DNA from: Longimicrobiales bacterium
GTDB taxonomy: Bacteria > Gemmatimonadota > Gemmatimonadetes > Longimicrobiales > RSA9
Direction: 5' to 3'
NCBI GenBank assembly: GCA_035764935.1
Contig: DASTYK010000094.1
Span: 1-48,278 of the forward strand
DNA: 48,278 nucleotides
The position numbers and the translations under genes are program-made. Numbering within the stretch: the stretch's first letter is position 1; the number at the start of each line of letters is the position of its first letter. The notes below the pieces were generated by a model. That model searched no databases, was not told where the DNA came from, and saw only the letters and a list, made by a program, of their open reading frames with translations. Below, piece by piece: positions 38,194 to 42,060 of this stretch.

Positions 38194-38493
38194 CTAGGGC
38201 AGGCGGATCTCCGGCTTCTCCGGGTGGCGGCGGTACAGCACGATGGTGCGGCCGATCACCTGCACGACGTGCATCGCTTCGACCTGCCCCGCCAGCTCGT
38301 CTGCCGCCTCGCGAGCAGAGACGGGTGCACCCTCCAGGACCTTGACCTTCAGCAGCTCGCGCGTTTCCAGTGCGGCCGCGATCGTGCCGGCGACGTTCGA
38401 GGTGACGCCCTCACGGCCGATCTGGAAGAGTGGCTTCAGGGGATGAGCGAGCGACTTGAGATGCGCACGCTGGCGGGCTGTAAGTGATTCCAT
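38194..38493 (-). CDS. yhbY: YhbY-type CRM-domain RNA-binding protein
   Basis: 99 aa, one complete CRM domain. It begins with LTARQRAHLKSLAHPLKPLFQ, has the RNA-contact loop IGREGVTSNV (GxxG), and ends with GRTIVLYRR, all hallmarks of YhbY. The family associates with pre-50S ribosomal subunits. ACGGAG lies upstream of the ATG. It diverges from the histidine operon; its start is about 50 bp from the his -35 box. Confidence 0.93.
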   Translation of the reverse strand: MESLTARQRAHLKSLAHPLKPLFQIGREGVTSNVAGTIAAALETRELLKVKVLEGAPVSAREAADELAGQVEAMHVVQVIGRTIVLYRRHPEKPEIRLP

Positions 38494-38540: not shown

Positions 38541-38569
38541 TTGACGCCGCCCGGGGCTCGCATTAGCCT
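38541..38569 (+). promoter_or_regulatory. Histidine operon promoter
   Basis: TTGACG (38541-38546), 17-bp spacer, TAGCCT (38564-38569). With the usual 6-nt distance, transcription begins at A38576, which is the first base of the leader-peptide ATG. The leader peptide mRNA would therefore be leaderless. Confidence 0.75.
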
Positions 38570-38575
38570 CGTTGC

Positions 38576-38650
38576 ATGAGCTACCGCTTCGCGCAGCATC
38601 GCCATCACGCCCATCATCACGGCCCGGCGGGTCGGGACGGAGGCGTGTAG
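38576..38650 (+). CDS. hisL: Histidine operon leader peptide
   Basis: 24 aa, MSYRFAQ then HRHHAHHH then GPAGRDGGV. Six of eight consecutive codons (residues 8-15) are His (four CAT, two CAC). This is the signature of ribosome-mediated attenuation: scarce charged tRNA-His stalls the ribosome here and changes folding of the downstream RNA. A perfect intrinsic terminator follows 38 nt after the TAG stop, ahead of hisG. No Shine-Dalgarno is present and the ATG coincides with the predicted transcription start, so initiation on leaderless mRNA is expected. Confidence 0.85.
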   Translation: MSYRFAQHRHHAHHHGPAGRDGGV

Positions 38651-38688
38651 CGCGTTCTGCAGGCGAATCGAACGCACGACGTTATCCG

Positions 38689-38723
38689 GCCGCGGCCCGT
38701 CTGTCGACGGGCCGCGGCTTTTT
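38689..38723 (+). terminator. Histidine operon attenuator (intrinsic terminator)
   Basis: Perfect 13-bp stem: GCCGCGGCCCGTC (38689-38701) and GACGGGCCGCGGC (38706-38718), loop TGTC, followed by TTTTT (38719-38723). It ends 17 nt before the hisG start. It is the only hairpin in the window with a real U-tract. The competing antiterminator should involve the GC-rich segment 38620-38640 after the His codons pairing with the left arm (for example GACGG with CCGTC), but I could not settle its exact pairing. Confidence 0.88.
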
Positions 38724-38740
38724 CGTGTCCGGAGAGGCCG

Positions 38741-39604
38741 ATGGTCAGGATTGCACTACCGAACAAGGGTCGCCTCGCCACCGAGGCGCGCGACCTGCTC
38801 GAGCGGGCAGGACTCGGGCTCGAGGTCTCGAGCGAGCGCGCGCTGCAGGCGTCGCTGGGCGGCGAGTTCCTGGCGCTGTTCGTGCGCGCGCAGGACATCC
38901 CCGAGTTCGTGGCGGACGGCGCCGCGGATCTCGGGATCACGGGGCACGACCTCGTGGTCGAGAGTGGACGCGACGTCAGGGACGTGCTCGACCTCGGCTT
39001 CGGCCGCTGCCGGATCGTGGTCGCCGCCCGCGATGACTCCGACATCAACGGCCTTGGTGACGTGCCGCGCGGCGCCCGCGTCGCCACGGTGTTCCCGGCG
39101 ATCGCGCGTGCGTGCTTCGAGGAACGCGGATGCGACGTCACCATCGTGCCGGTCTCCGGCGCCGCCGAGATCGCGCCGCACCTCGGCGTCGCGGACATCA
39201 TCGTCGACATCACGTCCACGGGTTCCACTCTCAAGGTCAATGGGCTGCGGGAGATCGAAACGGTGCTCGAGTCGTCTGCCCGGCTGATCGCGCGGCCCGC
39301 GCTGCTCGAGACGGAGCAGGGCGAGCGCGCCACGCGGGAGCTCTCGGCTGCACTCGAGTCGGTGCTGCGCGCGCAGGGCAAGCGCTACCTGATGGCAAAC
39401 GTGCCGCGGGCAGCTCTCGAGCAGGTGAAGCGCATCATCCCCGGTCTCAACGGCCCCACAATCATCGACATCCTGAACGGCGGCGAACACGTTGCCGCGC
39501 ACGCGGTCGTCAACGCAACCGACGTATACCGTGTCATCGCGGAGCTGAAGCAGGCGGGCGCCGAGGGCATCCTCGTCACGCGCATCGAGAGGCTGATGCC
39601 ATGA
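38741..39604 (+). CDS. hisG: ATP phosphoribosyltransferase, long (HisG-L) form
   Basis: 287 aa, the long form with a C-terminal ACT-like regulatory domain (about 210-287), which does not need HisZ and is normally feedback-inhibited by histidine. N-terminal IALPNKGRLATEARDLLERAG, ADLGITGHDLV, and the PRPP loop DIIVDITSTGSTLKVNGL are clear. It joins ATP and PRPP, the first step of the pathway. GGAGAGG precedes the ATG, right after the attenuator. The stop overlaps hisDC (ATGA). Confidence 0.96.
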   Translation: MVRIALPNKGRLATEARDLLERAGLGLEVSSERALQASLGGEFLALFVRAQDIPEFVADGAADLGITGHDLVVESGRDVRDVLDLGFGRCRIVVAARDDSDINGLGDVPRGARVATVFPAIARACFEERGCDVTIVPVSGAAEIAPHLGVADIIVDITSTGSTLKVNGLREIETVLESSARLIARPALLETEQGERATRELSAALESVLRAQGKRYLMANVPRAALEQVKRIIPGLNGPTIIDILNGGEHVAAHAVVNATDVYRVIAELKQAGAEGILVTRIERLMP

Positions 39605-42060
39605 GCCCGGAACTGCGAAGCGAAGGCGGGGCACCCGGACGGATCGCCGCGGCGACGGCCGGTGCCCCTGCGATTGCACTCGTGTCCGCCCTCGATGCGT
39701 TGCCGCGCGACGCGGAGCGGATCCTGTTCCAGCGCGGGTCCGCCGACGAGCCGGACGTGGCGTCCGCGGTGGCTGCGATCCTCGGCGATGTCCGTGCGCG
39801 CGGGGATGCCGCGCTCATCGAGCTGGCGCAGCGCTTCGACGGCGTGACGCTCACGTCGCTGGAAGTGCCGCGTGCAGAATGGGAGCAGGCGCTGCGCGCT
39901 CTCGATCCCGACGTCCGGGCCGCGCTGGAGCAGGCCGCACGCGCGATCGAAGCGTTCCACCGTGCGCAGCTGCCCCGCGACATCGAGATCGAAGGCCGGC
40001 CGGGTCTCCGTCTCGGCAGGCGCGCCGAGCCACTGGAGCGGATTGGCGTCTATGCGCCCGGCGGGCGGGCGGCGTATCCGAGCAGCGTGCTCATGGGCGT
40101 GGTGCCGGCGCGTGTCGCCGGCGTGGGCGACATCGTCGTCTGCTCACCGCCGGGACGCGACGGCCTGCCGCCCGCGGTCGTGCTGGCGGCCGCAGCGATC
40201 GGGGGTGCGGACAGGGTCTTCGCGATCGGTGGCGCCGGTGCCATTGCCGCACTGGCCTACGGCACGGCAAGCGTGCCCGCGGTGGATCGCATCGTCGGGC
40301 CCGGCAATGCCTGGGTGAACGAGGCGAAGCTGCAGGTCACGCGCGTCGTGGGGATCGACAATCCTGCGGGCCCCTCTGAGCTGCTCGTCCTCGCGGACGA
40401 TTCGGCAGATGCCGACCTTGTCGCCGTGGAGCTGCTGGCGCAGGCCGAGCACGATCCGGATGCAAGCTGCGTCCTCGTGACCACCAGCGGAGGGCTCCTC
40501 GGCCGGGTACGTGAGCGGCTCGCGGAACGGGTGCCGCGCGAGCCGCGCCGCGAGATCATCGAACAGTCGCTCGCCAGCAATGGCGCGCTCCTCCTGGCGG
40601 AGGACGTCGATGGCGCCATCGCGTTCGCGAACCGCTACGCACCGGAGCACCTGCTGGTGCTGACGCGTGAGCCGCGGTCCCTGCTGTCACGACTGCGCAA
40701 TGCGGGCACGATCTTTCTCGGGCCGTCGAGCTCCGTTGCCTTCGGCGACTACATGACGGGGGCGAATCACGTGCTGCCGACCGGCGGCCTGGCCCGCCTC
40801 CATTCGGGCCTGTCGGTACAGGACTTCCTGCGCTTCAGCACCTGGCAGGAGCTGGACGCGCCGGCTGCGGCAGCCCTGGCAACGCCCACCGGTGTGCTCG
40901 CGGATGCCGAAGGGCTGCCCGCGCACGCGGCCGCAGCGCGGCTGCGCTCGGACGGCGACGCAGGCACGCGCGCCGAGCTCGGGCCGGATCGCCCAGTGCT
41001 GCGCGCCGAGTACCGCGCGCTGACCACGTACGATCCCGGTCGTGAGCCCTGCGCGATCGACCTGAGTGACAATACGAACCTGTGGGGCCCGAACCCCGCC
41101 GCCGCCCGGGCGGTGCGCACAGCGGCCGACGCTGCGCTCACGCGCTATCCACCCGTCTACGTCCCGGCCCTGAAACGACGCATCGCAGCGCTGCTCGGCG
41201 TCGCGCCGGACAACGTGGCCACCGGCTGCGGCTCCGACGACGTGATCGACAGCGCGCTGCGTGCCTTCTGTGCGCCTGGCGACCTGGTCGCCTACGCCGA
41301 GCCGACGTTCGGCATGATCCCGGCCTTCGCTCGCATGAACGCGCTGAATGCTGCTGCCGTGCCACTCGCGCCGGAGCTGGCGCTGGACGTGAATGCGCTG
41401 CTCGCTGCGCGCGCCGCGGTGACGTACGTCTGCCGGCCGAACAACCCGACGGGGACCCTGTTCGAACGTGGCGCGCTCGACCGACTCGAGCGTCAGGCAG
41501 CGGGTGTGCTGCTCGTCGACGAGGCGTACATCGACTTCGCCGGGGAGGCAGGACTTGCCGGTGCGGCAACAGCCTCGTCGCGCACGATCGTGCTGCGCAC
41601 CTTTTCCAAGGCGTGGGGACTCGCGGGGCTGCGCCTGGGCTTTGCAGTCGGGCCGGCCGACCTGATCGCCGAGATCGAGAAGTCGCGGGGGCCATACAAG
41701 GTGAACGCGCTCGCGGAGCAGGCGGCGTTCGCGGTTCTCGACGAGGGGCGGGAGTGGGTCGAAGCGAGGGTCAGGGACGTCGTGCTCAACCGCGACAGGC
41801 TGACGGACGCACTCACGGCGCTCGGGCTGCGTGTACTGCCATCGGCCGCGAACTTCGTCCTCGCCGTGCTTCCCGAGGGTGAGGATGCGAACGACTGGAA
41901 TGCCCGCCTGCGCGCCGCCGGGGTCGCCGTGCGACCCTTCCCCGCGCTGCGGTCGCTCGGTGAGTGTGTCCGCATCACGGTCGGACCACCGGAAATGATG
42001 GAGCCCGCGGTCGATGCGATCTCCACGATCCTGCGTCAGCGAGAAACGGTGAACGGATGA
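39601..42060 (+). CDS. hisDC: Fused histidinol dehydrogenase (HisD) - histidinol-phosphate aminotransferase (HisC)
   Basis: 819 aa in one uninterrupted frame. HisD part (about 1-450): ERIGVYAPGGRAAYPSSVLM, IVGPGNAWVNEAKLQV, NPAGPSELLVLAD, EHDPDAS and GANHVLPTGGLARLHSGLS with the Zn-site His residues. HisC part (about 465-819): SDNTNLWGPNP, RPNNPTGTLF, DEAYIDFAG and PLP Lys in TFSKAWGLAGLRLGF, ending ECVRITVGPPEMM. HisC makes histidinol phosphate and HisD carries out the last two oxidations, so the fused steps are separated by HisN. Both halves keep their catalytic motifs. There is no stop or frameshift between them and only a short Ala/Gly/Asp-rich linker near 450-465. It overlaps 4 nt with hisG and hisH. 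Confidence 0.93.
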   Translation: MSPELRSEGGAPGRIAAATAGAPAIALVSALDALPRDAERILFQRGSADEPDVASAVAAILGDVRARGDAALIELAQRFDGVTLTSLEVPRAEWEQALRALDPDVRAALEQAARAIEAFHRAQLPRDIEIEGRPGLRLGRRAEPLERIGVYAPGGRAAYPSSVLMGVVPARVAGVGDIVVCSPPGRDGLPPAVVLAAAAIGGADRVFAIGGAGAIAALAYGTASVPAVDRIVGPGNAWVNEAKLQVTRVVGIDNPAGPSELLVLADDSADADLVAVELLAQAEHDPDASCVLVTTSGGLLGRVRERLAERVPREPRREIIEQSLASNGALLLAEDVDGAIAFANRYAPEHLLVLTREPRSLLSRLRNAGTIFLGPSSSVAFGDYMTGANHVLPTGGLARLHSGLSVQDFLRFSTWQELDAPAAAALATPTGVLADAEGLPAHAAAARLRSDGDAGTRAELGPDRPVLRAEYRALTTYDPGREPCAIDLSDNTNLWGPNPAAARAVRTAADAALTRYPPVYVPALKRRIAALLGVAPDNVATGCGSDDVIDSALRAFCAPGDLVAYAEPTFGMIPAFARMNALNAAAVPLAPELALDVNALLAARAAVTYVCRPNNPTGTLFERGALDRLERQAAGVLLVDEAYIDFAGEAGLAGAATASSRTIVLRTFSKAWGLAGLRLGFAVGPADLIAEIEKSRGPYKVNALAEQAAFAVLDEGREWVEARVRDVVLNRDRLTDALTALGLRVLPSAANFVLAVLPEGEDANDWNARLRAAGVAVRPFPALRSLGECVRITVGPPEMMEPAVDAISTILRQRETVNG

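Follow-up and report, generated by a model that had tools for sequence, protein, structure and literature searches.

How does this member of the Longimicrobiales control its histidine operon, and does the ribosome that would sense histidine begin at the very 5' end of the transcript? The window, which is the whole 48,278-nt stretch of DNA analysed, belongs to a host genome of 3.83 Mb in 195 contigs whose nearest database records are Gemmatimonadota MAGs. A leader open reading frame (hisL) precedes hisG, with about 80 nt of intergenic room for its promoter, the upstream yhbY-type gene being divergent; more his genes, judged from translations, lie 3' of a hisD-hisC fusion (Table 1). A preliminary description of the region had named a promoter, a 24-codon ORF with six His codons in eight, a 13-bp stem with TTTTT, and hisG, and each of these elements was recovered to the base. 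The terminator stem consists of 13 perfect G-C and A-T pairs (38689-38701 with 38706-38718) plus one G-T pair, and is followed by a T tract (38719-38723) that ends 17 nt 5' of the hisG ATG. The fold of the leader region beats 200 of 200 shuffles (z -2.8). Three features that mark the functional class are found computationally: a His-rich ORF before the his operon, a terminator before hisG, and mutually exclusive 2:3 and 1:2 pairings of the leader RNA. We conclude that transcription of the his operon is very probably attenuated here by a ribosome, one that would begin translating on, or very close to, the 5'-terminal nucleotides of the transcript. The attenuator proposed in the preliminary description is strongly supported by the conserved His codons, terminator, 1:2 helix and antiterminator.

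Table 1. Features of the hisL-hisG region, in window coordinates
Feature	Position	Strand	Basis
-35 element, TTGACG	38541..38546	+	sequence; TTGAC at the equivalent position in 80/83 distinct promoter-matched loci
-10 element, TAGCCT, spacer 17 nt	38564..38569	+	sequence; TAnnnT in 59/83 loci
Predicted transcription start, the A of the leader ATG, 6 nt past the -10 hexamer	38576	+	inferred from spacing
hisL, 24-codon leader ORF MSYRFAQHRHHAHHHGPAGRDGGV plus TAG	38576..38650	+	sequence
Regulatory codons, six His in eight (codons 8-15)	38597..38620	+	sequence
Segment 1, GGCCC, abutting the last His codon	38621..38625	+	1:2 helix covariation
Segment 2, core GGCGGGTC (38626-38633) plus 16-nt extension, within the leader ORF	38626..38649	+	covariation, duplex energies
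Segment 3, core GGCCCGTC (38694-38701) and the 18 nt 5' of it, paired with segment 2 in the antiterminator	38676..38701	+	swap test
Segment 4 core, GACGGGCC, 3' arm of the terminator	38706..38713	+	3:4 covariation
Intrinsic terminator, 14-pair stem, TGTC loop, five T	38688..38723	+	sequence; candidate in 88/88 distinct loci
Shine-Dalgarno-like GGAGAGG of hisG	38731..38737	+	sequence; anti-SD pairing -6.6 kcal/mol
hisG, first his operon gene, ATG at 38741	38741..39604	+	Pfam PF01634 and PF08029
yhbY-type gene, divergent from hisL	38194-38493	-	sequence
hisD-hisC fusion, single 819-aa ORF	39601-42057	+	Pfam Histidinol_dh 45-449, Aminotran_1_2 486-807

We compared 106 hisG loci for which 100 nt or more of upstream sequence was available; 93 carry a His-rich leader (at least four His within eight codons), and 88 of these are distinct after reduction. 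The carriers belong to Gemmatimonadota, to Myxococcota (Corallococcus, Myxococcus, Pyxidicoccus, Archangium and Hyalangium) and to records labelled Candidatus Eisenbacteria. Leader presence is clustered by HisG relationship, with 8 changes as against 16 in shuffles, on a quick tree in which some of the rows without a leader are merely short upstream sequences; loci with a more distant HisG type (family f3) have no such leader directly upstream. Across the HisG clade the His codons are kept while the remaining peptide varies. The peptide motif GPTGRG is also conserved 3' of the His codons, with T in the third position of the second Gly codon in 21/40, and this conservation probably reflects RNA structure. 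The preliminary description had held that loss of the His codons and terminator from close relatives would speak against it; both are retained over the broad HisG clade together with the 1:2 helix and the antiterminator, and that objection therefore fails.

A few loci depart from this pattern. In four genomes of one genus (loci L018, L019, L020 and L021) the leader is absent and hisG lies 38-39 nt 3' of another ORF, which, judged from these sequences, is a loss of the attenuator. The leader at L015 (G048) has just two His codons (MLLATTARRYHHRATLTGSAVVEVRG) with an intact terminator, and is possibly a decaying attenuator. Two records are probably misnamed or misbinned: one titled Comamonas sp. 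KCTC 72670 (L086), with a myxococcal HisG and leader region that falls inside the Myxococcota group of the HisG tree, and one titled Candidatus Kuenenia (L109), with a gemmatimonad HisG and leader region inside the Gemmatimonadota group.

After the last His codon the segments follow in a fixed order, GGCCC (1), G(A/G)CGGGTC or GACGGGYC (2) and, later, GGCCCGTC (3) and GACGGGCC (4), the last two forming the terminator core in nearly all of the 88 distinct loci. The 1:2 helix covaries, with 264 of 300 cells paired against 250.5 in column shuffles, a level that none of 2000 shuffles reached. Only covariation speaks for this helix, since the hairpin shows no excess stability over synonymous recodings (mean z +0.14). 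The 3:4 helix likewise covaries (461 of 480 cells against 445.6, above all 2000 column shuffles). The eight pairs of the 2:3 core taken alone show no covariation (411 cells against 411.2 in shuffles) and are uninformative because the core is nearly invariant. We therefore turned to the extended duplex, in which segment 2 with 16 further nt was paired with segment 3 and its 18-nt 5' flank, from the same locus or from other loci (n = 78, excluding L042 and L046, where a different hairpin was picked). The native duplex is on average 4.3 kcal/mol more stable and beats the average of the swapped ones at 70 of these 78 loci, with z -11.5, or -7.3 in a thinned set of 36 diverse loci, values that are not strict probabilities, the sequences being related. 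Against shuffled extensions or flanks the mean z is -1.55, and the window's own 2:3 duplex reaches -30.9 kcal/mol. One locus, L007, has matching changes in all four segments (GGCCT, GACAGGTC, GGCCTGTC and GACAGGCC). The covarying stems that the preliminary description proposed to seek in relatives are thus present for 1:2 and 3:4, and 2:3 is supported by the energy of the extended duplex.

Where would the transcript begin? A generic sigma-70 scan called no promoter, because TAGCCT differs from TATAAT by more than its threshold allows, and comparative spacing was used for the assignment in its place. A promoter match lies upstream of 83 of the 88 distinct leaders, the other five having none; TTGAC is exact in 80, and the spacer is 17 nt in 56 loci and 18 nt in 26, together 82 of the 83 matched loci. 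From the first T of the -35 element to the start codon the distance is 34-39 nt in 79 loci, with a mode of 36 nt (33 loci), and the gap between the -10 element and the start codon has its mode at 6-7 nt in relatives and is exactly 6 in the window. A strict motif (TTGAC, TAnnnT, 3-11 nt, start codon) occurs at 58 of 88 leader starts, where shuffles predict 0.02, and at none of 88 hisG starts. Because TTGAC keeps a constant distance to the first codon of the leader, the predicted transcript start coincides with the start codon or falls only a few bases from it. Mapped transcription starts in Streptomyces lividans lie on average 6.3 nt from the -10 element (PMC8079986), from which we predict +1 at the start codon in the window. 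No Shine-Dalgarno sequence precedes the window's leader (anti-SD pairing +1.3 kcal/mol), and pairing of -6 kcal/mol or stronger is found at 4 of 88 leaders, near the shuffled level, versus 14 at hisG. The leader start is thus likely leaderless: the preliminary description's proposal to this effect gains from the conserved promoter-to-start spacing, with the 5' end of the transcript standing as a prediction.

The elements, their conservation and their partner-specific pairing can be read directly from the DNA; from them we infer a transcript 5' end, leader translation, stalling and a histidine response in the following model, the classical attenuators of his and trp operons serving as guide to the direction of control. 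RNA polymerase would start at about 38576, and the AUG at the 5' terminus would be engaged by a ribosome with no help from a Shine-Dalgarno sequence. When His-tRNA is charged, the ribosome would pass the His codons and reach the stop codon (38648-38650), covering the distal part of segment 2 and its extension; the segment 2 core could then pair with segment 1, and the 3:4 terminator would form before hisG. When charged His-tRNA is scarce, the ribosome would stall in the (later) His codons, covering segment 1 and freeing segment 2, which together with its extension would pair with segment 3 and its 5' flank, so that no terminator forms and hisG and the genes beyond it are transcribed.

It is conceivable that the same attenuator is served by an ordinary or short 5' UTR, with initiation that is independent of a Shine-Dalgarno sequence and not truly leaderless. 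About a third of relatives have the start codon 8-11 nt past the -10 match, and some have a second in-frame start, which may leave a 5' UTR of a few bases in those relatives; moreover, Shine-Dalgarno motifs are weak throughout these loci, even at hisG, which makes their lack at the leader, taken alone, weak evidence. Against such a reading stand the fixed distance between the TTGAC/TAnnnT promoter and the start, 34-39 nt for most loci, and the gap of exactly 6 nt in the window, and the divergent yhbY gene crowds hisL. The fixed spacing and the crowding make a distant transcription start unlikely, and we consider a short-UTR attenuator improbable, though not negligible, beside one read from the 5'-terminal codon.

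Two other explanations, each of which we judge very improbable, would dispense with the ribosome or with termination. The leader ORF, whose translation is predicted, might be untranslated, its terminator being constitutive or under an RNA-binding protein or a T-box-like RNA; yet the His codons are conserved clade-wide while other peptide positions vary, and segment 1 abutting the last His codon and segment 2 lying inside the ORF fit control by a ribosome. Nor is there an Rfam match to a T-box or another family near the site: the T-box covariance model had no match in the window, where Rfam families gave sub-threshold chance matches only, mostly on the terminator hairpin, and none reached the gathering score in 13 relatives. 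Control of hisG could instead act on translation, as is known for leader peptides in other systems (PMC9413887), but a strong stem and T tract precede the hisG Shine-Dalgarno sequence, and every one of the 88 distinct loci has a terminator candidate. Ribosome-mediated attenuation of transcription is the reading that we retain.

Are such starts peculiar to hisL? The pattern TTGACN{15,20}TAnnnTN{2,30}ATG occurs at 43 sites in the host genome (G000) versus 3 for its reverse, and the gap peaks at 5-8 nt (12/39), where the ORFs include some whose translations resemble ArgC, GltX and ArsR- and MarR-type regulators. Leaderless-type promoters thus appear to be common in this genome and hence not special to hisL. 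In a genome of the same family (G006, locus L175), a Trp leader (MIERTLFPVMIGSGWWWWPSGEECVSAGSS) about 1091 nt upstream of a trpE match combines a run of four Trp codons with the arrangement TTGACA-17-TATCCC-9-ATG and a strong terminator, in the same layout as hisL; it is a candidate second leaderless-looking amino-acid leader in the family. The regions upstream of ilvB and leuA in relatives gave no leader candidate under the filter used.

The preliminary description saw in this locus the enterobacterial hisL design, and the regulatory logic is indeed shared: a leader peptide with His codons, alternative hairpins and a terminator before hisG. The likeness does not extend to the covariance model, since Rfam RF00514 (His_leader) has no match at E <= 5 in the window and none at the gathering score in 13 relatives. 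Unlike the enterobacterial leader, the one described here is predicted to lie at or near the transcript 5' end, lacks a Shine-Dalgarno sequence and has interrupted His codons, and its helices are built on the GGCCC / GACGGGYC / GGCCCGTC / GACGGGCC core. The further remark that leaderless leader-peptide attenuation is little described proved too strong, given precedents in S. meliloti, S. lividans, C. glutamicum and mycobacteria.

Canestrari 2020 reportedly deals with leaderless poly-Cys uORFs of mycobacteria. These uORFs, for which PMC13236596 cites that work and for which an attenuation role has been put forward as a hypothesis (PMC4633059), resemble hisL in being leaderless and rich in the sensed amino acid, and differ in that amino acid, cysteine, and in phylum. 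The attenuator transcript of Sinorhizobium meliloti trpL/rnTrpL begins with the ATG of the leader ORF (PMC7298713), but senses Trp and belongs to another operon and host, in Alphaproteobacteria. In S. lividans the leuL, trpL, ilvL, thrL and metL leader peptides are reported to be transcribed leaderless (PMC8079986), and the leader of the C. glutamicum ilvBNC (ilvB) attenuator is treated as leaderless (PMC11857589); these actinobacterial leaders share TAnnnT about 6 nt before the start with hisL, and differ in sensing other amino acids and, in several cases, in having no clear intrinsic terminator. His-rich leader peptides with terminator/antiterminator structures are described for Firmicutes his and hisS genes, in another phylum, in two papers that name neither Gemmatimonadota nor Myxococcota and whose relevant passages do not speak of leaderless starts (PMC9413887, PMC2965389). 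The literature searched, with most subscription papers outside it, holds no description of his attenuation in Gemmatimonadota or Myxococcota. What appears to be new here is the lineage, the histidine case for a leaderless design and the unusual depth of conservation; the principle is known elsewhere.

What is the relevance of a sensor ORF at the transcript's edge? These findings would extend his attenuation by a ribosome, sensed through an ORF that is predicted to be leaderless, to two or three neighbouring phyla. The approximately 88 distinct leaders with covarying helices form a set for studying leaderless initiation in relation to the timing of attenuation, and because the device also occurs in the culturable genera Corallococcus, Myxococcus and Archangium, the prediction is open to bench testing. 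We speculate, with more doubt than conviction, that this is a deeply conserved class of His attenuator, ancestral to the HisG lineage of Gemmatimonadota, Myxococcota and Eisenbacteria, in which the 5'-end start of the leader is part of the mechanism and not a by-product of general leaderless translation. If so, starting at the 5' end could, for example, keep RNA polymerase and the first ribosome in step along the leader of about 150 nt.
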